This document shows, piece by piece, positions 5,947 through 63,210 of a stretch of 64,000 nucleotides of DNA. The stretch's first letter is position 1. Each line of letters begins with the position of its first letter. Location: positions 41,334-105,333 of the IMG/VR virus record IMGVR_UViG_3300018412_000013. The stretch is one strand, 5' to 3'. The position numbers and the translations under genes are program-made. The notes below the pieces were generated by a model. The model saw only the letters and a list, made by a program, of their open reading frames with translations, ran no database searches and had not been told where the DNA came from. Origin of the DNA: a virus.

Positions 5947-6237
5947 ATGAAACACCTTAAAACTATAAGAACTACGCTAGGTAACCGAAAAGAAATGGAC
6001 GATTTCTTTCTACGATTTAAGACCACTAAAACCCTCAGCCACGCTTTTGAAAGTGTCTTACGTCGAAACAATGTTGATTTAAACTGTGAAACCTTTAAGT
6101 GTGCTAAAGAAAGCGCCATTCGTCGAAAAGCCCCTGCCGTAGTACTTGAGTTTATTGAGGCAGCGGAGGCAAGAGAAGAAGCCTTAGCTAAACATTCATT
6201 ACAGGTAAGTACAGACGGTTGGTTTATTGACCTCTAA
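5947..6237 (+). CDS. Small basic hypothetical protein, 96 aa
   Basis: Lys/Arg-rich soluble protein (MKHLKTIRTTLGNRKEMDDF) with a probable helical C-terminal half. Ribosome site TAAGGAAA. No membrane segment. Its charge would suit nucleic-acid binding, but I see no known fold. Confidence 0.65.
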   Translation: MKHLKTIRTTLGNRKEMDDFFLRFKTTKTLSHAFESVLRRNNVDLNCETFKCAKESAIRRKAPAVVLEFIEAAEAREEALAKHSLQVSTDGWFIDL

Positions 6238-6261
6238 ACGCGACAGTTGCATTTATAAAGC

Positions 6262-6287
6262 AAGTAAAACCTATATTTCCATAATGA
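6262..6287 (+). promoter_or_regulatory. Candidate phage promoter
   Basis: TAAAACCTATATTTCC followed by ATAATG; one copy of the recurring motif, 30 bases upstream of the next start codon. Confidence 0.6.
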
Positions 6288-6317
6288 TAATCAACCCACA
6301 ATCAGAGAGTGAAAACT

Positions 6318-6740
6318 ATGAATAGTACAGTATCCGCACTAGCTAAACTACTAAAAGGTAAAGTACGTGAAGACGATGGTCTTATTGTAGCTGGTAAAGA
6401 AACCTATGTGGAATTAAGACCTGAAGGCGTTACTGAAGAACAACTAGACAAAGTCAATCAGTACAATACGGATTACCTGGCGGCTTCAGCATTGGTTACC
6501 GGTGAACTTGCACATGCGTCACCTCATGATACCGTTAATGGTGCATTTGAAGGCGGTGACCATATTGGCTTTGAACATCTCTTTCAAAGAAAGGTCACTA
6601 TCGAAGGGGAAGAGCGTCATAACTACATGACATCTGCCATTATGAATGACTTCGGTACATCTAAAGATGGTATTGCTGCGGTACATAGCCATATTGCCCA
6701 GCTAATTACTTCTGAAGAAACCGTCGCTGAAGAAGAGTAA
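6318..6740 (+). CDS. Hypothetical soluble protein, 140 aa
   Basis: The start ATG at 6318 is preferred to the in-frame GTG at 6309 because GAGAG at 6305-6309 is spaced correctly for it. Starts MNSTVSALAKLLKGKVREDD and ends with an acidic tail. Acidic overall. It sits directly behind a candidate promoter and ahead of a terminator, so it is probably a monocistronic, well-expressed gene. No family recognised. Confidence 0.7.
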   Translation: MNSTVSALAKLLKGKVREDDGLIVAGKETYVELRPEGVTEEQLDKVNQYNTDYLAASALVTGELAHASPHDTVNGAFEGGDHIGFEHLFQRKVTIEGEERHNYMTSAIMNDFGTSKDGIAAVHSHIAQLITSEETVAEEE

Positions 6741-6753
6741 GGTCCCTATTGGC

Positions 6754-6808
6754 TAGATGAGGGAGGGAAAACCTTCCCTCATCTAATAAAGTCTGCTTTT
6801 ATTAATAG
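6754..6808 (+). terminator. Hairpin terminator
   Basis: TAGATGAGGGAGGG pairs with CCTTCCCTCATCTA around AAAA (one wobble), followed 12 bases later by CTTTTATT. Closes the 140-aa gene. Confidence 0.6.
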
Positions 6809-6820
6809 AAGGAAAGTGCC

Positions 6821-7066
6821 GTGATATATCTAGGACGATTGGAAACTCCTAAACAAGTTAACAATGAGCGCGTTGCGCTGATTGCAAAATTCATGCGATT
6901 AACTAACCGCATTAGCCAATTAAAGAAAAAGTACGTAGGGAAAGTCCCGTACTGCAAAACTAAAATTACTCCGGTCAGTGGTGACTGCACCATTGAAAGT
7001 ATTACCATGCAAATTACTCAAGCGGAACAGGTATTACGCGAACTTCAGGAAGGGGCGGCGACATGA
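6821..7066 (+). CDS. Small basic hypothetical protein, 81 aa, GTG start
   Basis: GTG at 6821 is preceded by AGAAGGAAAG at good spacing. The product is helical and Lys-rich (RISQLKKKYVGK) and ends in a likely short coiled coil (MQITQAEQVLRELQE). The stop overlaps the next start (ATGA at 7063), so the two are translationally coupled. Unknown function. Confidence 0.6.
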   Translation: MIYLGRLETPKQVNNERVALIAKFMRLTNRISQLKKKYVGKVPYCKTKITPVSGDCTIESITMQITQAEQVLRELQEGAAT

Positions 7067-7242
7067 CCATGAAAGACCCGATTTCTGGTGAGCTCATGGA
7101 TGTATTTGCTCCTATTCTTTTTATTGAAGAAGATGAAGAGCCGGTCGATGTGTTAGGGAACATCGATTTCGATGAGTACTTCTTTGACCCTACCCATCTC
7201 ATCGATATGGAAGATGCGGTTCCCCCAGAACCAGAACCATAA
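7063..7242 (+). CDS. Short acidic protein, 59 aa
   Basis: ATG at 7063 overlaps the previous stop. The product is strongly acidic (FIEEDEEPVDVL, NIDFDEYFFDP, PPEPEP at the end). Acidic, hydrophobic-rich small phage proteins are often inhibitors or DNA mimics, but nothing here identifies a target. Closed by a palindromic terminator. Confidence 0.6.
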   Translation: MTMKDPISGELMDVFAPILFIEEDEEPVDVLGNIDFDEYFFDPTHLIDMEDAVPPEPEP

Positions 7243-39589: not shown

Positions 39590-41467
39590 ATGTTCGATCC
39601 AAATGAAAACAAAGCACCTAAAGCAACTAAAGTTCCAGCAGGCGACAATACTCAAGCAACATCGCAATCAAGCGACTTTTTCTCTGACTATCTAGCCGGT
39701 GCTTCTGACGTAGCATCACGTTCTTCTGAAATCGTAGTTAAGGCAGTTGAGTTCCTAAACAAACGTTCTGAAGACGCTAAGCGTCTAAACGCTGACCGTG
39801 TAGGTCTACGTTTCACTCACATCGATGACGAAACAGCGCTAGGTCTACCTGTTATCATCGCTTACAACACTAAAGGTCCGGTTAACGGTTTCTTCACTAT
39901 CATCGTTGAAGAAGGCGCATACGACGGTAAGTTAAAAGGTCGTGAAGTACATGTACTGAACGAACAGATTGTTATCGACCAATCGACTTCTGATTATTGG
40001 GATGGTATCTTAGTTACAACTATCGCTAAGCATCTGAAGCAGCTTACTCAAAAAGACTATGCGCACAATAGCTACATGGTTGCACGCGAGTGCATGGACT
40101 TGTCTAACGAGAAGTACCTAGGTGCACTATACGCGACATCAGAGCGTAACCTAATGTCTCTGTCTGTAGTTAATGTCCCAACAATCGAAAACTTGAACCA
40201 ACACGGTCTGTCATTGGAAATAAGCCATGACGTATCACCTGGTGCAACAGTTGAAGATTTAGAAGGTAACCCTGTTTACTGTGACGTTGAATCAACCGTA
40301 AGTCTAGGTGTGCCACGTGACCGCAACAACAAAAACCGTTCACACAATGCCCGTGAGCGTCGTGCTACTCTTGTAAACGTACGTAGTTACCTAGACTTCG
40401 TGTTCCAACCAGCAAGTCAAGTCGCTACGTTACCTGGCACTCAAGAAATGATTCGCCCAGCATACCACCCAGTATTGATTCAAGCAGACAGCTCAGGTAT
40501 CGATGCTCAAACTGGTAAAGCATTTGAATCACGTGAAACTGCACTGTTCGCATTGCTAGCAATGGCAGAGCTGGCGGCTAACCGTAACTACATCAACATT
40601 CTGCGTCGTAACCACGGCGGTAAACCAGAAATTGGTGTATTAGGCTACCGTTGGGAAGGTCGCTACGGTGTACAAGACTGGGTACCGGCCGAAGTAGAAA
40701 TCGATAAAGGTATCGCTACTGGCATGAACTCAGGTCGTCAAACACTGGATGCTTACCTAAAACGTAACGTACACGACACTATTACAGTAGCAGTCGACGT
40801 ACTACGCGGTGGTCGTAACGCATGGATCTATGAACCATACGTACAGTCAGTGCTAGCGAACAACCCAAATGACCGTCTAGAAGCGAACACCAATATTGTT
40901 CGTATGATTGACGCGTTCACTAAAGGTCACTTCTCTGCACTATGGCCAGAAAACAAACCTATCTTCCAAGAGTCTGTTGTTGCAGTACACTCAGCAACTT
41001 ACTTAGACAAAGATGGTCACGTACATGACGTACGTGAATGTGGTACGCTACAGCTACACCAACTTTACAAAGAGCAAACTGATGCACGCATGGCTGAGTT
41101 TGAAAAATCAATGGCACCGGGTGGTTCTAACGGTGATGTTGGTCTAGTCAACATTCACAATCGTCGTCAAGTACTAAAACAAGTACTAGGTGCAGAAATC
41201 AATGGTATGATTGAACGTCTGTTCTACATGCCTGACTTCTTCCCTGTGTTCTTAGAAGCGTGTGGTCGCGCTGGTCTTCGTGTTAGCTCTGAAGGTCTAC
41301 ACGACACAACTGTAGCTGGTAACATGGGCGTGGATAACTTCCACGCTGGTCAAATGCCTACAATGACAGGTATTTACCAAACCTCTACAGGTGGTTATGC
41401 AAACGGCCAAGGTCAATACATCGGTGGCAACTACAGCTACGGTGCATATGGTGCCTACAACGGTTAA
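39590..41467 (+). CDS. chmA: Chimallin (ChmA), nuclear shell protein
   Basis: 625 aa; known chimallins are about 600-630 aa. It assembles the protein lattice enclosing phage DNA. Seen: disordered polar N-terminus (MFDPNENKAPKATKVPAGDN), a folded core with VGLRFTHIDDETALGLPVIIAYNTKGPVNGF, and a flexible Gly/Tyr/Asn-rich C-terminal tail (NGQGQYIGGNYSYGAYGAYNG) matching the tails that tie protomers together. Codon use is strongly biased (GGT, CGT, CTA, GTA), as expected of the most abundant early protein. Context is phiKZ-like: the nvRNAP beta' gene follows shortly. Identification is by family knowledge, not a search. Confidence 0.85.
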   Translation: MFDPNENKAPKATKVPAGDNTQATSQSSDFFSDYLAGASDVASRSSEIVVKAVEFLNKRSEDAKRLNADRVGLRFTHIDDETALGLPVIIAYNTKGPVNGFFTIIVEEGAYDGKLKGREVHVLNEQIVIDQSTSDYWDGILVTTIAKHLKQLTQKDYAHNSYMVARECMDLSNEKYLGALYATSERNLMSLSVVNVPTIENLNQHGLSLEISHDVSPGATVEDLEGNPVYCDVESTVSLGVPRDRNNKNRSHNARERRATLVNVRSYLDFVFQPASQVATLPGTQEMIRPAYHPVLIQADSSGIDAQTGKAFESRETALFALLAMAELAANRNYINILRRNHGGKPEIGVLGYRWEGRYGVQDWVPAEVEIDKGIATGMNSGRQTLDAYLKRNVHDTITVAVDVLRGGRNAWIYEPYVQSVLANNPNDRLEANTNIVRMIDAFTKGHFSALWPENKPIFQESVVAVHSATYLDKDGHVHDVRECGTLQLHQLYKEQTDARMAEFEKSMAPGGSNGDVGLVNIHNRRQVLKQVLGAEINGMIERLFYMPDFFPVFLEACGRAGLRVSSEGLHDTTVAGNMGVDNFHAGQMPTMTGIYQTSTGGYANGQGQYIGGNYSYGAYGAYNG

Positions 41468-43680: not shown

Positions 43681-45055
43681 AAACTAAAGTACAGTTTGCT
43701 CCATTAAGGAGAAACTCGTGGAAATTAAACTACACGGAGACACTTTCAGAAAATCTTTAGAACATCCTTCTATTGTCGTTTCTCGGACCGGCAAACTCTT
43801 TAATCTAAAAGAAAACGCTTACATTGAAATCAATCCTCCTAAAGAAGATTGGTACTTGACGTTTACTTCTCCTGACACAGGCAAGACATCATTACTCCAT
43901 CGCTTAGTTGGGGAATGCTGGGTGTCTAACCCTAGCCCGGAAACGTTCACCCTGATTAACCATAAGAACGGTAATAAACATGACCCGCACTTTGGAAATC
44001 TAGAGTGGACCGACCATAGTGGTAATATACGTCACGCCTATGAACATGGTCTACGTACCGAAATGCAGACACTCGAAGTTTTCGATAAAGTAACACAGAA
44101 ATGGTTTAAATCTAAAGGTCTAAATAAGACCGCGGCCTTAATCGACCTATCTCCGGCGCAACTGTCTTATCACCTTAAGGCAAAGGGCTGGTTTGAAAAT
44201 GCCAATTTCATCACTCAGCTTTCTAACCTGGAAAGCCGTAAGGTGGCTGACCGTACTTTGTTTCCAGTAGGTGTTTTCGCCAAAGATATCGAAACAGGGA
44301 AGGTCGTTATAGCTGAAAACATTTCGCGCCTATCTAAAACCATAGGGGTTCCGAAGTCCAATATAAGACGTTGCATAGTGAAGGGAAAAGAATACCCCTC
44401 CAATGGCTACTTGTTTAGTTTGGACGGTGAGTTCCCAGAGACATGGAAAGATAACCATCGGACTAAAAAAGCCGTGGTCTACTTACATGAAGACGGGCGT
44501 AGAGTAATTGCCGTTTCGGATAGAGAAGCACAGAAACTGACAGGTATTAATGCTAAGCGTATAGTTAGAATGAAGAAAGAAGGTTCATCCTTTAAAGGTT
44601 GGAAAGTGCAAACTGGATAAGTCCGCCTCTATGGTGACATACAGGTGAGAATACGTGAATTGCTGGTAAAGTCTAAAGCCTAACACCAAAACGGATAGCG
44701 AAAGCTAAAACGGTAACGGTGACGAAAGTCAGAAAAGACGTTAGGATGACCTATGGTGAGAGCCTAAGGGTTTTGACAATGGACAGCTCAGCAGCCAAGC
44801 GCCTACGGATTGTTGTGATAACAAGCTATGGTGAAGGTTCAACGACTATTACTGGGTACGGCACCCGATGTAGGAGAGCAAGCGCCTCCGAAGTGCGTAT
44901 ATCTGGAGTTGACTGAAGAAGTCTTATTCTCCAGAACTGATATAGTCTCGGCGTATCGCAAGATACCTGCTAGCCTGTGATGGTTAGTCGTCCGGTGAAA
45001 CCCCGGAGCAGCATTAAGTTGCGGGTAAGGGATAGCATCCTTACTGAAGATAACG
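43681..45055 (+). ncRNA. Group I intron in the beta' gene
   Basis: Self-splicing intron with an internal homing-endonuclease gene. Core elements after that gene: P-like AATTGCTGGTAAA (44657), R-like GTTCAACGACTATT (44838) and S-like GATATAGTCTCG (44939), the P7-forming pair of subgroup IA introns. It ends in G (45055), immediately before FDGD. The 5' boundary after NAD has C rather than the usual U, so it needs experimental proof. Confidence 0.82.
43718..44620 (+). CDS. Intron-encoded HNH homing endonuclease, 300 aa
   Basis: Located in the intron loop. HNH_3-type core INHKNGNKHDPHFGNLEWTD (His82, Asn85, Asn94) followed by an IRHAYEHG helix, then NUMOD-like DNA-binding modules (KTAALIDLSPAQLSYHLK and SRLSKTIGVPKSNIRRCI). 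It would nick intron-less RNA polymerase alleles to copy the intron. GTG start at 43718 behind AAGGAG. Confidence 0.85.
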   Translation: MEIKLHGDTFRKSLEHPSIVVSRTGKLFNLKENAYIEINPPKEDWYLTFTSPDTGKTSLLHRLVGECWVSNPSPETFTLINHKNGNKHDPHFGNLEWTDHSGNIRHAYEHGLRTEMQTLEVFDKVTQKWFKSKGLNKTAALIDLSPAQLSYHLKAKGWFENANFITQLSNLESRKVADRTLFPVGVFAKDIETGKVVIAENISRLSKTIGVPKSNIRRCIVKGKEYPSNGYLFSLDGEFPETWKDNHRTKKAVVYLHEDGRRVIAVSDREAQKLTGINAKRIVRMKKEGSSFKGWKVQTG

Positions 45056-47647: not shown

Positions 47648-47674
47648 AGAAAGGGCGTTTGTCCTTTCTTTTTT
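47648..47674 (+). terminator. Rho-independent-type terminator
   Basis: AAGAAAGG pairs with CCTTTCTT around GCGTTTGT, then TTTTG. Confidence 0.7.
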
Positions 47675-47696
47675 GTCAACTATAGGAACCACCATC

Positions 47697-48110
47697 ATGC
47701 CCGTACCTGCAATAGGCACTCTATCGTCAGACGGTTACGTTACTGACCCTAAAAAACAACTTTCGTATATGTTTGCCCACATATTCGAAACCCGTCATAA
47801 TGACACCATCCTTTTCACAGGACAACTTACTTCGATTCAGTTACTGACCGCTAAGTACGCTAAAGACAGTGCGGTGTTTCGTACCGAACTTACGGCAGCA
47901 TTAACAAAATACTTTTCTCGTGTCTTTGATAGTGCTAAAGTTATCGTTACCACTGAAGATATCGATGAGTCTAGCTACATGGCTTCTATAGACGTCAAGG
48001 TGACGCGTAATGGCGAACTTTATAGCTTAGGTGCTGAGCTGTCTATAGACCCCTTAAAATCCATTACACGCCTGATTAAGGAGATTAACCAGTCAATAAC
48101 CTCCCCCTAA
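47697..48110 (+). CDS. Hypothetical protein ending at IscB insertion 1, 137 aa
   Basis: ATG 47697 behind TAGGAACC; starts MPVPAIGTLSSDGYVTDPKK. The arrangement (short N-terminal segment, helix, strand pair SSYMASIDVKVTRNGELYSL) recalls small baseplate wedge proteins of the gp25 type, weakly. The last residues TSP and the stop are encoded by the left end of the omega-RNA element, so the original C-terminus may have been slightly altered. Confidence 0.6.
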   Translation: MPVPAIGTLSSDGYVTDPKKQLSYMFAHIFETRHNDTILFTGQLTSIQLLTAKYAKDSAVFRTELTAALTKYFSRVFDSAKVIVTTEDIDESSYMASIDVKVTRNGELYSLGAELSIDPLKSITRLIKEINQSITSP

Positions 48111-48338
48111 AGGGGTAGGCTTGTAAAAGCCTAATTGACCAGCCTTAGTTCTTAACAGAACTACGTTATCTTAGTTATCATACCCTGGGGTGGCCGGTCC
48201 AGCCCCAGGCTCTATGCAGGCTCTGTAAACAGTTCTAGAGGTAAGAACCGTCAACCTGGTGAGCCGATTACGGTAAGCTTTGATAACATTGGCGAGGACC
48301 ACTTAACTGCTTAAATGCACGTAAACAGGAACGATATT
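48081..48338 (+). ncRNA. IscB omega-RNA (HEARO), copy 1
   Basis: Guide RNA scaffold directly upstream of iscB. The conserved element begins at TAACCTCCCCCTAAAGGGG (48097); the guide, read from the neighbouring gene, would be about 48081-48096 (GAGATTAACCAGTCAA). Stems shared with copy 2 include TAGGCTT/AAGCCTA, AGTTCT/AGAACT and CCTGGGG/CCCCAGG; each differs from copy 2 by paired changes. The conserved ATTACGGTAAGCTTTGATAA core lies at about 48268. Ends 8-10 bases before the iscB start. Exact ends are not known. Confidence 0.85.
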
Positions 48339-49796
48339 ATGTCTAATTCCGTATTCGTCTTAAATGACGATAAAACGCCCTTAATGCCGTGTAAGCCGGC
48401 TAGGGCGAGATTATTATTAAAACAAGGTAGGGCGGCTGTGTTTAGAACCCATCCCTTTACTATCATTCTAAAAGAACAGATAGAGAACCCTGTACTGGAA
48501 ACGATAAGGGTAAAGGTAGACCCCGGTAGTAAAACCACCGGGATAGCCTTAACAGTTCACTATAAAAGAGGAGTAAAGTGCATCTGGGGAGCCAACCTAG
48601 AACACCGAGGTCATGCTATAAAAGATGCATTACTATCTAGAGCACAGTGTCGTAGAGGGAGGCGTGGCCGAAAGTTACGCCACCGTAAACCTAGATTCTT
48701 AAATCGGTTTAAACCTGAGGGATGGCTTGCACCAAGCATTATGTCTAGAGTAGATAATACACTAACTTGGGTAAATCGCTTGATGCGGTACTGTCCTGTG
48801 GGACAGGCCTCTGTAGAACTTGTTAAGTTTGATATGCAGAAGATGGAAAATCCTGAGGTTACAGGTAAAGGATACCAACAAGGTACTTTACACAACTATG
48901 AAGTTAAAGAATACTTACTGTATCGCTATAACCATACTTGTCAGTATTGCAAAGGCGTCAGTAAAGACCATATTCTAGAGATAGAGCACATTGTACCTAA
49001 ATCTAAAGGAGGCACGAATAGTATTGGTAATCTAACTTTAGCCTGTTCGAGCTGTAACCGACATAAGAATAACCATACTTTGAAAGACTGGTTAGAAATA
49101 AACCGTGGTCTAAAAACACCTCTGGCTAAAGCCAGGGTACGTAACATCCCTAGTGTGATATCAAGACGTAAACCTACGCTTAGAGACGCTGCCGCTGTCA
49201 ATGCGACGAGACATAGGCTAGTAGAAGAGCTAGGGTTTTTAGGACTACCGACGGAGTCGGAGGGAGGGCATGTTACGAAGTATAACCGCCGCCGGCAAGG
49301 CTATCCGAAGGACCACTGGATAGATGCTGCGCTAGTAGGTGATACGGGCAGTAACGTGCACATACCGAAATCTACGCATCCGTTACTTATTAAAAAGACT
49401 AAAGTTAATAACCGTCAAATGACTAGGCCGGATAAGTATGGTTTTCCTAGAACTAAACCTAAAGGCCCGTCTAAAGCCTTCGGGTTTAAAACAGGTGATG
49501 TGGCTAAGCATGGTAGGCTTATTGGCCGCGTAGCGATAAGAACATGCGGTTACTTTAACTTTTTAGGTAAAGGCTGCAGTTACCGGCACTTAAAACGTAT
49601 CCAGTCAGTAGATGGTTACCAGTACACCGACGGTAAGTTAACAAGTCTAATAACAGAAACCGACTACTTGCCATGGTTTACTTATGTACATTCCGTTACT
49701 AAAATAGATGGTAGTGCTAAAAAGATAACTGGCAAGCTTAATAAGGAGGGAAAGAGATTTTTATGTACACCAAAAAATACATCAGGCACGTCCTGA
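48339..49796 (+). CDS. iscB: IscB RNA-guided nuclease, copy 1
   Basis: 485 aa; relative and presumed ancestor of Cas9. ATG 48339 fits the alignment with copy 2. Domains: PLMP domain (DDKTPLMPCKPARARLLLK, about 10-28), RuvC-I VDPGSKTTGIAL with Asp61, bridge-helix Arg-rich RRGRRGRKLRHRK (about 105-117), RuvC-II around YEVKEYLL, HNH CQYC...EIEHIVPKSKGG...CSSC (about 201-239, His217), RuvC-III GYPKDHWIDAALVG (His326, Asp329), then a C-terminal domain. All catalytic residues seem present. Closed by GGGGACT/AGTCCCC at 49804. Confidence 0.92.
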   Translation: MSNSVFVLNDDKTPLMPCKPARARLLLKQGRAAVFRTHPFTIILKEQIENPVLETIRVKVDPGSKTTGIALTVHYKRGVKCIWGANLEHRGHAIKDALLSRAQCRRGRRGRKLRHRKPRFLNRFKPEGWLAPSIMSRVDNTLTWVNRLMRYCPVGQASVELVKFDMQKMENPEVTGKGYQQGTLHNYEVKEYLLYRYNHTCQYCKGVSKDHILEIEHIVPKSKGGTNSIGNLTLACSSCNRHKNNHTLKDWLEINRGLKTPLAKARVRNIPSVISRRKPTLRDAAAVNATRHRLVEELGFLGLPTESEGGHVTKYNRRRQGYPKDHWIDAALVGDTGSNVHIPKSTHPLLIKKTKVNNRQMTRPDKYGFPRTKPKGPSKAFGFKTGDVAKHGRLIGRVAIRTCGYFNFLGKGCSYRHLKRIQSVDGYQYTDGKLTSLITETDYLPWFTYVHSVTKIDGSAKKITGKLNKEGKRFLCTPKNTSGTS

Positions 49797-49841
49797 TTCC
49801 TCAGGGGACTAAAGTCCCCGGTATTCTCAGGAGAAAATAAA

Positions 49842-50318
49842 ATGAGTGGTTTTATAGTCCCAGAAAACGTTTTTCCTTCTATTAAGGAAAGTTTGTTCCG
49901 TGACCGTTATTTGCCTGCCTTCATTAATAACGATAAAGAGCTTTGCTTAGAGTGGGTAGAGCGCATCTCTATCTCTCCCTTTGCAAAAGTACGTGTAGTC
50001 GATGATTCGGATATGGATAAGATTCTATTTGAAGTCCCGCCACTAGTACGTGGTCCAGAGACTCAGATAGGCGGAAACTTCAATGCCGTAATGCAAACCG
50101 CTAGCCGTATTGCAGAAAACTACAACAGTAAAGTGACTGAGCGCTATATCCGTGATACGTTAAATGGGCGCTTTGTCTGTGAAACCGAATCCGACGCTGA
50201 CATGGAAGCGTGGATTGACATTGCAATTCGTTATGGATATAGTCGTCCAGATACACCACAATCTACTGCCTCAGGAAACAATAATGGATTGGTTAACGAA
50301 GAAGAAGACTGGGATTAA
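49842..50318 (+). CDS. Hypothetical protein, 158 aa
   Basis: MSGFIVPENVFPSIKESLF; acidic C-terminus (VNEEEDWD). Soluble, mixed alpha/beta. Ribosome site CAGGAGAAAA lies just inside the right end of the IscB element. Overlaps the phosphoesterase start by 35 bases, hence co-expressed. Unknown function. Confidence 0.65.
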   Translation: MSGFIVPENVFPSIKESLFRDRYLPAFINNDKELCLEWVERISISPFAKVRVVDDSDMDKILFEVPPLVRGPETQIGGNFNAVMQTASRIAENYNSKVTERYIRDTLNGRFVCETESDADMEAWIDIAIRYGYSRPDTPQSTASGNNNGLVNEEEDWD

Positions 50319-51456
50319 CATCCTTTACTTTTCCGATGTACATATGCTTCATCCCCGTGTACGCAGTCGAGATATTGCTGACCGATTACAAAAGCTAATC
50401 CTTAATGTTATCAAACACCATGTGTTAGACTATATCATCATTGCTGGGGACTTTTATGATGAAAGTGGCTATTTACCCGATGAAGATGTATTTGTAGTAG
50501 AAGAGTTTATACGTGTGCTGATTCATCTATGTGCACATAATCATATCAAGCTTCGGATACTAGAAGGTACCCCGTCCCACGATAGAAAGCAATCTCGCCA
50601 CTTCGTTAAGGTAAATAATTTCCTTAGTGGAAAAGAAAAGGCCGACTTAAAATACATCGAGACATTGGACATTGTTAAGGAAGAAGATGGTTCGACATGG
50701 CTTTATGTCCCAGATGAATGGCATCATGACCCAGATGTTGTCTGGAAGCAGGTACGGGATAGGCTGAATCAGGAAGGTTTAACTCAGGTAGACTTTTCCG
50801 TAACACACGGGATGTATAAGCACCATGTACCACATGGACTGGATTTAAAAGCCCATGACCCTGACCGGTATCTGGATATCACCCGTTACTATGTAGACAA
50901 TGGGCATATCCATACAAAGTCTGTCTACAAAGACAGGTTCATTACCAATGGGTCACCTGACCGTTTGGCTATGGGGGAAGAGGAAAGTAAAGGGATATGG
51001 ATGGCTCATGTAAGTAGTCACTCACGTATGGAAGACAAATTGTTTTTCTTTGAAAATAAAGAAGCCACGTATATGGTAACTTTAGACATTAAAGAACATA
51101 CCTTTGAGAGAAGTAAAGAAGTCATCGAGTCCCATTGCCATCCTACAGAAAGACGCTTTATTCGTCTGGAAATCTCAGAAGAGCTTTATAGTCAAGGACT
51201 GATGAGTTATTTCCAAGACTTATACCCTAATATAGTCTGGACAAAAAAGGTCACTCGCAATGACAATATGCAAGTCTCTTTTTTAGAGGCATTAAATGCT
51301 AAAGTGCACAATAGACCTATTAATGCCAACACAATCGAAGACCTTTTCTTAGAAGAAGCACGTCTTCGTAATGTAGACGAGAATGAGGTTATAGATGCCT
51401 TAGCTTTTTTGAAATCCCAACCCTTTTATGTCAGTAACCTCCCCCTAAAGGGGTAG
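50284..51456 (+). CDS. Mre11/SbcD-like metallophosphoesterase, 390 aa
   Basis: Start ATG 50284 (AGGA 10 bases upstream) is preferred over 50164. Calcineurin-like motifs: ILYFSDVH (Asp18, His20), IIIAGDFYDE, EGTPSHD (in place of GNHD), SVTHGMYKHH, and DNGHIHT. This is the set used by nuclease SbcD/Mre11 for two-metal catalysis. Possible role in DNA repair or recombination in the phage nucleus. No SbcC-like partner is in the window. The last six residues NLPLKG and the stop come from the second omega-RNA element. Confidence 0.8.
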   Translation: MDWLTKKKTGINILYFSDVHMLHPRVRSRDIADRLQKLILNVIKHHVLDYIIIAGDFYDESGYLPDEDVFVVEEFIRVLIHLCAHNHIKLRILEGTPSHDRKQSRHFVKVNNFLSGKEKADLKYIETLDIVKEEDGSTWLYVPDEWHHDPDVVWKQVRDRLNQEGLTQVDFSVTHGMYKHHVPHGLDLKAHDPDRYLDITRYYVDNGHIHTKSVYKDRFITNGSPDRLAMGEEESKGIWMAHVSSHSRMEDKLFFFENKEATYMVTLDIKEHTFERSKEVIESHCHPTERRFIRLEISEELYSQGLMSYFQDLYPNIVWTKKVTRNDNMQVSFLEALNAKVHNRPINANTIEDLFLEEARLRNVDENEVIDALAFLKSQPFYVSNLPLKG

Positions 51457-51676
51457 GCATGTAAGTGCCTAACTGACCAGCCTTAGTCCCGTTAGGGACT
51501 ACGTTATCTTAGTTATCATACCCCGGTGTGGCCGGTCCAGCACCGGGCGCTATGCAGGCTCTGTAAACATACCTAGAGGTAGGGTAAGTCAACCTGGAGA
51601 GCCGATTACGGTAAGCTTTGATAACATTGACGAGGACCACGTAACTGCCCTACGGGCACGTAAAGGGAACGATATT
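51419..51676 (+). ncRNA. IscB omega-RNA (HEARO), copy 2
   Basis: Same architecture as copy 1. Element starts at TAACCTCCCCCTAAAGGGG (51435); the guide would be about 51419-51434 (AACCCTTTTATGTCAG), the end of the phosphoesterase gene. Stems with paired changes relative to copy 1: TAGGCAT/GTGCCTA, AGTCCC/GGGACT and CCCGGTG/CACCGGG, plus GCCC/GGGC near 51645. Conserved ATTACGGTAAGCTTTGATAA at 51605. Confidence 0.85.
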
Positions 51677-53149
51677 ATGTCTAATTCCGTATTCGTCTTA
51701 AATGACGATAAAACGCCATTAATGCCGTGTAAACCGGCACGGGCGAGATTATTATTAAAACAAGGTAGGGCAGCAGTTTTCAGAAAGCAGCCCTTTACTA
51801 TCATTATGAAAGAACAGATAGAAAACCCTGTTCTTGAGAACATTGAGGTAAAGATAGACCCCGGTAGTAAAACCACCGGGATAGCGCTAGTAATGAATAC
51901 TAAACGTGGAGCTAGATGTATCTGGGGTGCCAACCTTAAGCACCGAGGTCAGCAGATACGTGATGCCTTATTGTCCCGCGCTCAAACGCGACGGGGGCGA
52001 CGCAGTCGTAAACTGCGCTACCGTAAGCCTCGATTTTTAAACCGAGTTAAATCTAAAGGGTGGTTGGCGCCCAGTATTTACACTCGAGTAGATAATACCC
52101 TCACTTGGGTTAACCGTCTTATGCGCTATTCGCCAGTGACGTCGGCAGTGGTTGAACTCGTTAAGTTTGATATGCAAAAGATGGAAAACCCGGAGATTGC
52201 AGGTAAGGCGTATCAGCGAGGAAGTCTCTTTAACTATGAAGTTAAAGAGTATTTACTGTATCGATATAACCACACCTGTCAGTATTGTTCTGGTGCATCT
52301 AAAGACCCCATTTTGGAGATTGAACATATTGTTCCTAGAGCATCAGGTGGTAGCAATCGACTGAGTAACCTGACACTCTCCTGTGCGACATGTAACCGAG
52401 AGAAAGGGAAACTGTCTTTGGCTGACTGGAAGGATAAATGTACCCACCGAAAAAACCCTATTGACATGAAGCGATTAAAAGGTATTGTTCGAGTGGGACA
52501 GAACATTAAGCCCGCACTGAAAGATGCGGCTGCCGTGAACGCTACTCGATATCGTCTAGTAGCTGAGCTGGACTATCTGGGACTACATACGGAAACCTCA
52601 GGAGGACACATTACCAAATATAATCGTAAGCAACAGGGTTATCCGAAGGACCATTGGATAGATGCTGCTTTAGTCGGAGAAAGGGGTTCTCACGTTCATA
52701 TCCCTCCGGAGTTACATCCTTTAATCATTAAAAAGGTAAAAGTTAATAACCGCCAGATGACAAAGCCTGACAAATATGGCTTCCCTCGAACGAAAGCTAA
52801 AGGTCCTTCCCGAGCTTTCGGTTTTAAGACAGGAGATATCGCGGCTTCCCCGTTTGGCGTGGGGAGGGTGGTCATCCGGACCTCGGGTACTTTTAACGTA
52901 TTAGGAAGAGATGTTAGCTGGAAGCGTTTAGTCCATCTCTCCTTTACTGACGGTTACGAATATGTGGACCAACGCATCGTCAAGATGATTGTTGATAAGC
53001 ATACTGTAATTAAAGAGGTGTTTGAGAGAGTCATATCAAAAACATTAATTGACGCCGATTCCCTTCTCATAGAAGGTACATTGAATCGTAAAGTAGTTCA
53101 TGGTATCCGTAGGGACAGTAAAACTAGAGACCATACTAAACTATATTAA
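51677..53149 (+). CDS. iscB: IscB RNA-guided nuclease, copy 2
   Basis: 490 aa. Same order as copy 1: PLMP domain, RuvC-I IDPGSKTTGIAL (Asp61), basic bridge (RRGRRSRKLRYRK), YEVKEYLL, HNH CQYC...EIEHIVPRASGG...CATC, RuvC-III GYPKDHWIDAALVG, C-terminal domain with KAKGPSRAFGFKTGD. The first 70 residues are nearly identical to copy 1 at the DNA level, the rest much less so. Complete; no frameshift. Confidence 0.92.
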   Translation: MSNSVFVLNDDKTPLMPCKPARARLLLKQGRAAVFRKQPFTIIMKEQIENPVLENIEVKIDPGSKTTGIALVMNTKRGARCIWGANLKHRGQQIRDALLSRAQTRRGRRSRKLRYRKPRFLNRVKSKGWLAPSIYTRVDNTLTWVNRLMRYSPVTSAVVELVKFDMQKMENPEIAGKAYQRGSLFNYEVKEYLLYRYNHTCQYCSGASKDPILEIEHIVPRASGGSNRLSNLTLSCATCNREKGKLSLADWKDKCTHRKNPIDMKRLKGIVRVGQNIKPALKDAAAVNATRYRLVAELDYLGLHTETSGGHITKYNRKQQGYPKDHWIDAALVGERGSHVHIPPELHPLIIKKVKVNNRQMTKPDKYGFPRTKAKGPSRAFGFKTGDIAASPFGVGRVVIRTSGTFNVLGRDVSWKRLVHLSFTDGYEYVDQRIVKMIVDKHTVIKEVFERVISKTLIDADSLLIEGTLNRKVVHGIRRDSKTRDHTKLY

Positions 53150-53165
53150 TCATAAGGAGTAAACG

Positions 53166-53942
53166 ATGACTCCACGTACCGTAGGAGAAAAGTTAGCGTT
53201 TTCAGTAGGGACAGCTATCCCTTTAGAGGAACACGTTGTTTCAGATGGGTATAAAGCCGACGCTATTCTGTTAAACGTGAAAACGTTATTTAGAAACTTC
53301 TGGGGGGCGTGGCCAAATACCGACCGTCCTCCAGTACAGCAAATGTTTGAGCTTTTTGTAGAAGAAGTTAGAGACATTATGGCACTGTGTCAAACGATGG
53401 GAATAACACCTGTCCTATATCACTTGACTTATGCCTCACTGAGCAATCGTTATCCGAATGCTACGTTAGTAGTTCCTAAGACCGATAACCAGAAGGCCTA
53501 TGCCAGCGCCGAAGCAGCTATGATGAAGGTAGCCATTAGTCAGTTCCCAGAAATGGTAAAGAGCGATTTAACATTACCGTCTTTTAACGGAAACGTTTAT
53601 CTGTTAAGTTCATACCCAGTAGACTTACTTAATGCGCATCGCTATGTATCGTTAAAGTTACTCGAGAGCCATACGGGGAATGTGAAAGGACGCGCTGAGT
53701 GGTTTAGTAAACTCAGTAACGCTCCTGAACTACAACACCTTCCATTTAACCATTTCATGTTACAGGTATTTGGTGACCGGGCTACTCAGTTTGTAGGCCA
53801 ATCCCAGAAGATAAAGAAAGCCGTCATTAAACTAGCACTTTCTCGTAACTGGAATCAGTCTACTACCCTTACCCGTATACGTGAAAATCTCACATCGATT
53901 GAAGACAGTGACTTGCGCAAACAGTGCCTGTCATTTGTCTAA
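53166..53942 (+). CDS. Hypothetical protein, 258 aa
   Basis: MTPRTVGEKLAFSVGTAIPL; soluble, helical C-terminal half, no enzyme motif. Ribosome site AAGGAG lies after IscB copy 2. Followed 20 bases later by another gene, so an operon. Unknown function; the phosphoesterase and it were probably adjacent before the element arrived. Confidence 0.65.
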   Translation: MTPRTVGEKLAFSVGTAIPLEEHVVSDGYKADAILLNVKTLFRNFWGAWPNTDRPPVQQMFELFVEEVRDIMALCQTMGITPVLYHLTYASLSNRYPNATLVVPKTDNQKAYASAEAAMMKVAISQFPEMVKSDLTLPSFNGNVYLLSSYPVDLLNAHRYVSLKLLESHTGNVKGRAEWFSKLSNAPELQHLPFNHFMLQVFGDRATQFVGQSQKIKKAVIKLALSRNWNQSTTLTRIRENLTSIEDSDLRKQCLSFV

Positions 53943-61328: not shown

Positions 61329-63210
61329 GTTTCTCTATAAGGACTGATTTTAATTAGTAACAAATGTACCAATAGTATGTATTTAAATTTTAATAGTGCG
61401 AGAATACAACTATGTTTTGGTACATTCCAGGAACAAACGATTGGGCGATTGATGAAGAACATATTCTTCGTAGTCCAGAAGGAAAACTCATCCGGCCGAG
61501 TGTTAACCAAAGGGTTAGATTAACCCTGTACGGTAAACCAACGGCTACTTCATTGAAGCGTCTATTCCTTTTAGCGCATCATGACATGTTTTTACCAGAT
61601 AGAAGTCTAGAGGGGCTCCAAAACGTTAAGTTTGTCCCTCAAGAGAAATCTGGCTTTACTGAAAGTAGTGGGTTCATGCCTATCTTCAAGGAACCCATTC
61701 ACATTAATAAGGATTTTCGCGTATGTCCACTATGCCCAAGTCTGGCCGTAAATAAGGAGGGTACTAAAATTTATTGCTGGAGGACTGATAAGTATCTAAA
61801 TGTTTATAGTCTCGCCGGTTACCGATACCTTACTCACTACGGCCGAAATTACAGGGTTCATAGATTAGTAGCATCGGCATGGGTAGAAAATCCAAATCCT
61901 CGGACTAAACCGGTTGTTAATCACATTGACCACAATAGAGATAACCCGCATTATCTTAACTTAGAATGGTGTACCCAGCAAGAAAATGCCGAGGCTATGG
62001 TGGAATATGGAAACAGCGCTACAGCCATCGAGTGTAAAGTTAGAGACTTTGTAACGGGCGTGGTAACTATTTATCCTAGTGTCAATGCCGTCGCTAAGGC
62101 GTTAGGTTTAAAACCACCAATACATTTAAGTACTTTAATGTCTACCAACCCTTATCGTCTTTATATGGACCGCTACGAAATAAAGCCACTGATGGATCAG
62201 ACCCCATGGAAAAAGATATCTCCAGGAGAATCCAGGAAGTCCCAGTACACATTTGCAGTCTACGAGTCACCTGGTAATGCCTTGATTTATCATGATCGTA
62301 TGCAGGTACAGAAAAACTATAAGATATGGAACGTTCCTAACATCGAGCGCCTAATCGATAAGTTTTCTGAACTCCATCCTGACAAACGTATCTATTATTG
62401 CAAAAACTATATACATGAGACTATACAGTCGATGCGTATAGGCACATGGGAAATTAAGGAGTGGGCTTCAATACGAGAAGCCTCTAGAAAACTTAATGTC
62501 AGTTTTTCGGCCATACATGGAGTTATCCGTGATAACGCTTCTTCTAGAGAAGTTAAAGGTTACCTCTTTAGAACAACATCCTCGTTGCCGTGGGAACGCA
62601 ATGTAGATGCATTTAAAAGTAAAAAAATGAGTTTAAAAGCAGTGCACGAAAAGGACGGAAGTACAATCAACTTTGTATCTCTGCGTGCCGCCGCCACCCA
62701 CTTTAACTGTGATAGAAGCACCGTTAAAAGATGGATACGTAAAAAAATTGTTTTGTTCGGTTACTTTTTAAACAAAAGTTAATAGCATCCCTTAGCCAGT
62801 AATGGCTTTGAACAAACTCCTCTAATTGCGGGAAGTTCTTGGTGAAACTTACTACCAACTTAATGCGGAAACGTAATTAAGGGCGCAGCTAATCACTGCG
62901 GTATGGTAAAAAGGTAAGTGGAAAGAAAATCGACGCAGCGAAGTTCCTAAGTCTATTAACAGATATGGAATGAGTTCAACGACTATCGAAAGGATAGCCA
63001 TAGTGGTGACATTATGGTGAATAACTGAGTAGAGTACAGCCACAGGCTTATGGTGGCCCTGGAGAACAGGATAGCGCACATGCGTAATGGAAACGGGGAG
63101 CCCCTACCTCATCTTTATAAAGATGTCGAGGGTGATGATATAGTCTGCCCCTTATGGCGACATAAGGCGGGTGTCTGAGCACACCGGGTCAACAATTGCA
63201 CGTTGATTGG
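61329..63210 (+). ncRNA. Group I intron in the beta gene
   Basis: After the internal HNH gene the ribozyme core is clear: P-like AATTGCGGGAAGTTC (62825), Q-like AATCGACGCAGC (62928), R-like GAGTTCAACGACTAT (62970) and S-like GATGATATAGTCTG (63133). It ends in G at 63210. phiKZ carries an intron in the equivalent gene (gp71-73). Subgroup IA by the P and P7 elements; exact ends need RT-PCR. Confidence 0.85.
61412..62782 (+). CDS. Intron-encoded HNH homing endonuclease, 456 aa
   Basis: Larger than usual. HNH_3 core VVNHIDHNRDNPHYLNLEWC with NAEAMVEYG after it (about 168-200). An N-terminal extension carries CPLC and YCW, a possible zinc site. Downstream NUMOD-like repeats: SVNAVAKALGL, SIREASRKLNVSFSAIHGVI and SLRAAATHFNCDRSTVKRWI. 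Probably nicks intron-less beta alleles. Its sequence is unlike the endonuclease of the first intron beyond the HNH core. Confidence 0.82.
   Translation: MFWYIPGTNDWAIDEEHILRSPEGKLIRPSVNQRVRLTLYGKPTATSLKRLFLLAHHDMFLPDRSLEGLQNVKFVPQEKSGFTESSGFMPIFKEPIHINKDFRVCPLCPSLAVNKEGTKIYCWRTDKYLNVYSLAGYRYLTHYGRNYRVHRLVASAWVENPNPRTKPVVNHIDHNRDNPHYLNLEWCTQQENAEAMVEYGNSATAIECKVRDFVTGVVTIYPSVNAVAKALGLKPPIHLSTLMSTNPYRLYMDRYEIKPLMDQTPWKKISPGESRKSQYTFAVYESPGNALIYHDRMQVQKNYKIWNVPNIERLIDKFSELHPDKRIYYCKNYIHETIQSMRIGTWEIKEWASIREASRKLNVSFSAIHGVIRDNASSREVKGYLFRTTSSLPWERNVDAFKSKKMSLKAVHEKDGSTINFVSLRAAATHFNCDRSTVKRWIRKKIVLFGYFLNKS

Follow-up and report, generated by a model that had tools for sequence, protein, structure and literature searches.

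Two sister IscB-omegaRNA elements at start-codon junctions of a probable jumbo-phage fragment, read as candidate RNA-guided homing endonucleases

HEARO RNAs (omegaRNAs) and the IscB nucleases encoded next to them are already known from viruses: more than 16% of the contigs that encode HEARO nucleases appear to come from viruses or prophages, and few carry the transposase TnpA (Goltsman et al., 2022, PMC9755519). The guide forms the 5′ end of these RNAs, and HEARO nucleases are sensitive to mismatches as far as guide position 13 (PMC9755519); effective guides are about 13–15 nucleotides (nt) long (PMC13180657). Two other systems are relevant to what such nucleases might do in a phage. TnpB drives its insertion sequence (IS) through plasmids as a gene drive (PMC11870625), and a homing endonuclease of nucleus-forming phages, the intron-encoded gp210 of PhiPA3, serves as a competitive weapon against PhiKZ (PMC11620839). 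Here we analyze two HEARO/IscB elements in a 64,000-nt stretch of viral DNA (the window), bases 41334–105333 of the IMG/VR record IMGVR_UViG_3300018412_000013, itself a 105,333-base fragment. Coordinates are window positions; the elements, their parts and their flanking genes all lie on the plus strand.

The arrangement of these loci, in which a HEARO RNA immediately precedes an RRXRR-HNH IscB gene and TnpA is usually lacking, is that of the viral HEARO/IscB (OMEGA) systems (PMC9755519). What sets them apart from published examples is that two sister copies occupy one phage, most likely a nucleus-forming one, and that the corresponding empty junctions can be read in a syntenic relative, Vibrio phage vB_VmeM-Yong XC31 (Yong XC31). 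With ISC/IS200-IS605 transposons, element 1 shares a left end that begins GTCA, a right-end hairpin with the loop CTAAAG and RTGA at the junction; unlike those transposons, the record contains no TnpA gene that we could find, and element 2 has no recognizable right-end hairpin. As with free-standing phage homing endonucleases of the GIY-YIG and HNH types, the insertions are intergenic and lie between conserved genes, one of them at a junction where a relative carries a GIY-YIG gene, whereas here specificity would reside not in the protein but in an RNA guide taken over from the flank. The predicted outcome resembles that of the TnpB plasmid drive (PMC11870625) and of gp210 (PMC11620839), in that element-free alleles would be cut and inheritance or competition biased; for TnpB and gp210 this effect has been shown experimentally, whereas the IscB counterpart is a prediction.

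We propose, at a probability of roughly 60%, that both loci are IS200/605-derived IscB elements that persist as RNA-guided, free-standing homing endonucleases without a transposase gene of their own. This reading is supported by the occurrence of intact HEARO/IscB twice, with compensatory RNA changes, purifying selection and exact GTCA-to-RTGA ends; by element-free syntenic junctions, a 12/13 match of guide 1 to one of them, the lack of any near-target in the window and the lack of TnpA; by a GIY-YIG gene at one of the two junctions in a relative and two group I introns with HNH genes in the phage; and by the TnpB (PMC11870625) and phage endonuclease (PMC11620839) precedents. These loci bear on the natural role of transposase-less IscB. 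With predicted guides, predicted target-adjacent motifs (TAMs) and empty targets legible in the sequence, and a syntenic relative at hand, RNA-guided homing becomes testable for one enzyme lineage at two sites. The loci also connect work on OMEGA nucleases as gene drives with work on homing endonucleases that nucleus-forming phages use against each other, subjects treated separately in the sources cited.

Both RNA scaffolds match the Rfam HEARO model (RF02033, gathering score 83) over its full length, scaffold 1 (48092–48307) with 139.1 bits and scaffold 2 (51430–51645) with 117.2 bits. They are the only HEARO matches in the whole record, and each lies directly upstream of a full-length IscB gene. 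The two scaffolds, 216 nt each, align without gaps and differ by 29 substitutions. A first-pass annotation, made by a model from the letters of the window, had pointed to compensatory changes in three stems and taken them as evidence of selection on folding. All three are present, TAGGCAT/GTGCCTA with one G-U pair, and on the Rfam structure eight base pairs are changed on both sides and still paired, one is changed on a single side and still paired, and one is broken. When the 29 substitutions were scattered at random in 20,000 runs, double changes averaged 0.58 and never exceeded 5, and roughly 10 pairs were broken; this null disregards site-specific rates, but the gap between observed and expected is large nonetheless. 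Selection on RNA folding in both copies is thus supported.

The proteins are equally well preserved. IscB 1 (485 amino acids; 48339–49796) and IscB 2 (490 amino acids; 51677–53149) each contain an RRXRR domain (PF14239, about 240 bits) and an HNH domain (PF01844), and the top PDB sequence matches are solved IscB structures. Each has the PLMP start, the RuvC-I Asp, the arginine-rich bridge (RRXRR), HNH and RuvC-III, and RuvC-I D61, RuvC-II E160, HNH H217 and RuvC-III H326/D329 (copy 2 numbering) are invariant across five aligned sequences. Rfam, Pfam and PDB matches therefore agree with the first-pass annotation that a full-length IscB follows a HEARO/omegaRNA at each locus, and its assignment of catalytic residues holds in the alignment; what changes is the start of IscB 1, which is more likely the ATG at 48339, aligned with 51677 in copy 2, than 48315 (493 amino acids). 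The copies differ at 33% of residues, and a nonsynonymous divergence (dN) of about 0.30 beside a saturated synonymous one (dS) indicates that both have long been under purifying selection. The exception to this conservation is the C-terminal 60 residues, only 27% identical between copies and far below the rest. In both proteins about 60 residues follow the usual IscB end (DGYxY; listed with window 49106–49140 for IscB 1).

Near-identical pairs of HEARO/IscB elements inserted at separate sites in bacterial and viral DNA allow the element ends to be defined. In such pairs the common sequence runs from the G of GTCA to RTGA, and a hairpin with the loop CTAAAG or CTGAAG often stands about 20–30 nt before RTGA. 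We accordingly placed the left end at HEARO model position 1 (the G of GTCA) and the right end just before RTGA (ATGA or GTGA). Element 1 then spans 48092–49841 and is missing in Yong XC31. Its right-end hairpin (49791–49832; TCCTGA-TTCCTCA-GGGGACTAAAGTCCCC-GGTATTC-TCAGGA), with a 6-bp inner stem, a 6-bp outer stem and the loop CTAAAG, is IS200/605-like and laid out as in other HEARO/IscB elements; the first-pass annotation had overlooked it. The ATGA that follows (49842–49845) is both the predicted TAM and the start codon of the downstream gene, a PHIKZ063 homologue (49842–50318). Element 2 spans 51430–53165 and is missing from all 86 related loci, Yong XC31 among them. Its left end is present, as is the ATGA (53166–53169), again a predicted TAM and the start codon of a PHIKZ066 homologue (53166–53942), and the right-end finder recognized no hairpin. 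The left edge of element 2 is uncertain by 1 nt, as the flank ends in CTTTTAT and a junction CTTTTA/ATGA would restore the TAATGA of Yong XC31. The earlier statement that no transposase is seen stands for TnpA (Y1_Tnp), which has no match in the 105-kb record, with TnpA the only transposase tested and the fragment the only sequence covered.

Both elements also make good what they remove from the flanking genes. Upstream of element 1 lies a PHIKZ062 homologue (47673–48110; phrog_3294), which shares 47% identity with its positional counterpart in Yong XC31 and has its last codons and stop inside the element. Upstream of element 2 lies a gene for an SbcD-like nuclease (50284–51456; 55% identical to that of Yong XC31, with a weak Metallophos match and an uncertain start), whose last 9 codons, from 51430, are inside the element. 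The stop codons, TAA at 48108–48110 and TAG at 51454–51456, are supplied within the first 27 nt of the elements. A replacement ribosome-binding site for the downstream gene is present as well, AGGAG in the 3′ arm of the element 1 hairpin and AAGGAG in element 2.

That the two loci are precise insertions between genes adjacent in relatives, a point also overlooked at first pass, is apparent from Yong XC31, which has the same gene order with neither element and with both gene pairs adjacent. Its junctions read ..GATTAACCG/ATGACAG.. at the site of element 1 and ..GCAGCATA/ATGATAG.. at that of element 2. Excision of element 1 in silico yields ..ATT AAC CAA TGA.., a four-base stop/start overlap as in Yong XC31. 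Among 79 IMG/VR loci and 7 isolates collected via SbcD and its neighbor, none of the 86 carries IscB or HEARO, and SbcD and gene 066 abut in most of the loci where both genes were found. At this same SbcD-066 junction, the one occupied by element 2, a related locus (L225, IMGVR_UViG_3300020048_003360) carries a GIY-YIG/NUMOD3 endonuclease (6181–7131). Other loci show other fillings there: a 179-residue open reading frame (ORF) without a Pfam match in L183 (6143–6682), a gap of similar size in L184, L185, L188 and L190, and in L251 a 2.7-kb gap with several small ORFs and no IscB or HEARO.

By analogy with published IscB/HEARO RNAs, whose guides are 5′ (PMC9755519) and, where effective, about 13–15 nt long (PMC13180657), we predict the 16-nt guide of omegaRNA 1 to be TTAAGGAGATTAACCA (48076–48091) and that of omegaRNA 2 to be ATCCCAACCCTTTTAT (51414–51429, subject to the 1-nt uncertainty of the edge). 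Guide 1 combines the last bases of the upstream gene with the stretch that once served the downstream gene as ribosome-binding region. It matches the homologous empty site of Yong XC31 at 12 of the 13 TAM-proximal bases, with the mismatch adjoining the TAM. Of 16,429 RTGA sites across the 86 related loci no other comes as close, the runner-up having 3 mismatches. At site A, element 1 is thus inserted exactly within its own predicted recognition site, which is intact in an element-free relative apart from that one base; at site B (element 2) relatives have an empty junction that does not preserve the guide sequence. Neither 16-nt guide comes within 5 mismatches of any RTGA site in the window.

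From this anatomy a homing cycle can be envisaged. Transcription running on from the upstream gene would enter the element and produce an omegaRNA whose 5′ guide is flanking phage sequence. IscB with this RNA would then cut any phage genome carrying the uninterrupted guide followed by ATGA, which is the same junction without the element, and repair off the element-bearing genome would copy the element in; alternatively, the cut genome would be lost. Because the guide is taken from the flank, specificity would be rewritten automatically at every new insertion site. Siting at a junction with an ATGA start codon, along with the supplied stop codon and ribosome-binding site, is expected to keep harm to the phage small. 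Since element 1 keeps both ends, a TnpA supplied in trans, none being found in the record, could still carry it to new sites, whereas element 2, its right end lost, would depend on homing or vertical inheritance. More tentatively, we suggest that IscB-omegaRNA lives in nucleus-forming phages as a homing endonuclease that reprograms itself, with one enzyme lineage colonizing successive ATGA-start junctions and cutting relatives at their conserved translation-start regions. Such action may occur inside the phage nucleus, which would need IscB import and guide-RNA retention.

Both elements stand immediately before a start codon. RTGA begins 24 of the 46 plus-strand genes predicted in the window (ORFs of at least 110 amino acids), and the window holds 1,047 RTGA sites on both strands, so the chance of both insertions falling at gene starts is roughly (24/1047)², about 5e-4 as a crude estimate. 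The siting is most simply explained by the loss of insertions that did harm. We dropped start-codon siting as a general rule for viral HEARO elements: only 39 of the 151 related loci yielded a right-end candidate, doubtful in some cases, and insertions in mid-gene are possible.

The two copies themselves appear to be related by descent within one phage lineage. In a tree of 144 viral and bacterial proteins, IscB 1 and IscB 2 are mutual closest relatives with 100% support and a long stem, and one copy therefore probably arose from the other within this phage lineage. Synonymous identity is unevenly distributed along the gene, with 50 of 66 codons identical in the first 80 codons and 102 of 246 afterwards (p = 8e-7; 48092–48580 versus 51430–51915). 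General RNA constraint was rejected as the cause, since 1,776 other IscB pairs lack such a gradient at the 5′ end; this suggests, by preference, later gene conversion of the 5′ part of IscB between the copies.

Several observations weigh against homing. If homing were often horizontal, related phages should carry IscB at the same junction, but none of the 86 related loci does, and guide 2 matches no junction among the relatives compared. Searches of IMG/VR for close relatives and for exact empty sites found no closely related element-free allele, so homing and vertical inheritance are not separated: the only near-identical match, a contig 99.98% identical over 13.5 kb, has both elements, and the exact site B search returned nothing. 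The one match of an exact site A search was set aside: it comes from an unrelated phage, in which the identical bases form a ribosome-binding site ahead of an ATG. Finally, element 1 has a transposon-type right end, so that transposition may explain its position. This last point leads to the strongest alternative, that both loci are ordinary non-autonomous ISC transposons moved by a TnpA of the host or of another element, with IscB merely rebuilding the donor copy once it has been excised (peel, paste and copy) and no homing from phage to phage. Element 1 has both ends, including the hairpin; close pairs at different bacterial sites show that such elements transpose; and the second copy probably came from movement within the lineage. 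Against it stand the lack of TnpA in the 105-kb record, though the gene could lie elsewhere in the phage or in the host, and element 2, which has lost its right end, yet keeps its IscB and omegaRNA under purifying selection. We judge this explanation unlikely, though it deserves to be kept in mind.

It is a good deal less probable that the elements are mainly weapons, with IscB cutting co-infecting related phages at conserved junctions and homing not needed, as with PhiPA3 gp210 against PhiKZ. The precedent (PMC11620839), the nuclear shell protein encoded by this phage and the match of guide 1, with ATGA, to the homologous Yong XC31 site fit such a role, but the sole mismatch adjoins the TAM, within the 13 positions over which HEARO nucleases tolerate mismatches poorly (PMC9755519), and guide 2 matches none of the relatives compared. 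A domesticated or cut-deficient IscB that regulates genes through guides resembling ribosome-binding regions would suit the origin of guide 1 and the maintenance of both copies, but is very improbable with all catalytic residues conserved and no near-target in the window. We therefore return to RNA-guided homing elements as our preferred reading of both loci.

Their value lies in fully readable anatomy and testable targets and not in a new class. The first-pass annotation had implied novelty by describing IscB as mainly bacterial and archaeal, a view weakened by the published viral HEARO systems, by 79 related viral IscB loci in IMG/VR and by a viral contig that also encodes two IscBs. On that contig (IMGVR_UViG_3300034684_000299; L020 and L079) the two are distantly related, and two further viral loci, L076 and L060, each have two HEARO matches within 7 kb.

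The same annotation spoke of a jumbo phage. The record is a fragment, and the claim holds by homology: a gene for a phiKZ-type nuclear shell protein (39590–41467; phrog_4795, E = 1.4e-35), a gene order around both elements that is that of phiKZ genes 062–068 and is syntenic with phages of 270–320 kb, and Yong XC31 as the nearest isolate make it most likely that the record derives from a nucleus-forming jumbo phage. Among the Rfam matches in the window there is no CRISPR repeat family, and no search aimed at a CRISPR array or adaptation genes was made. Two group I introns (RF00028) are present at 43718–44968 and 61412–63167, with two HNH-endonuclease ORFs (phrog_59) adjoining or overlapping them, and judged from these the phage is rich in homing elements.

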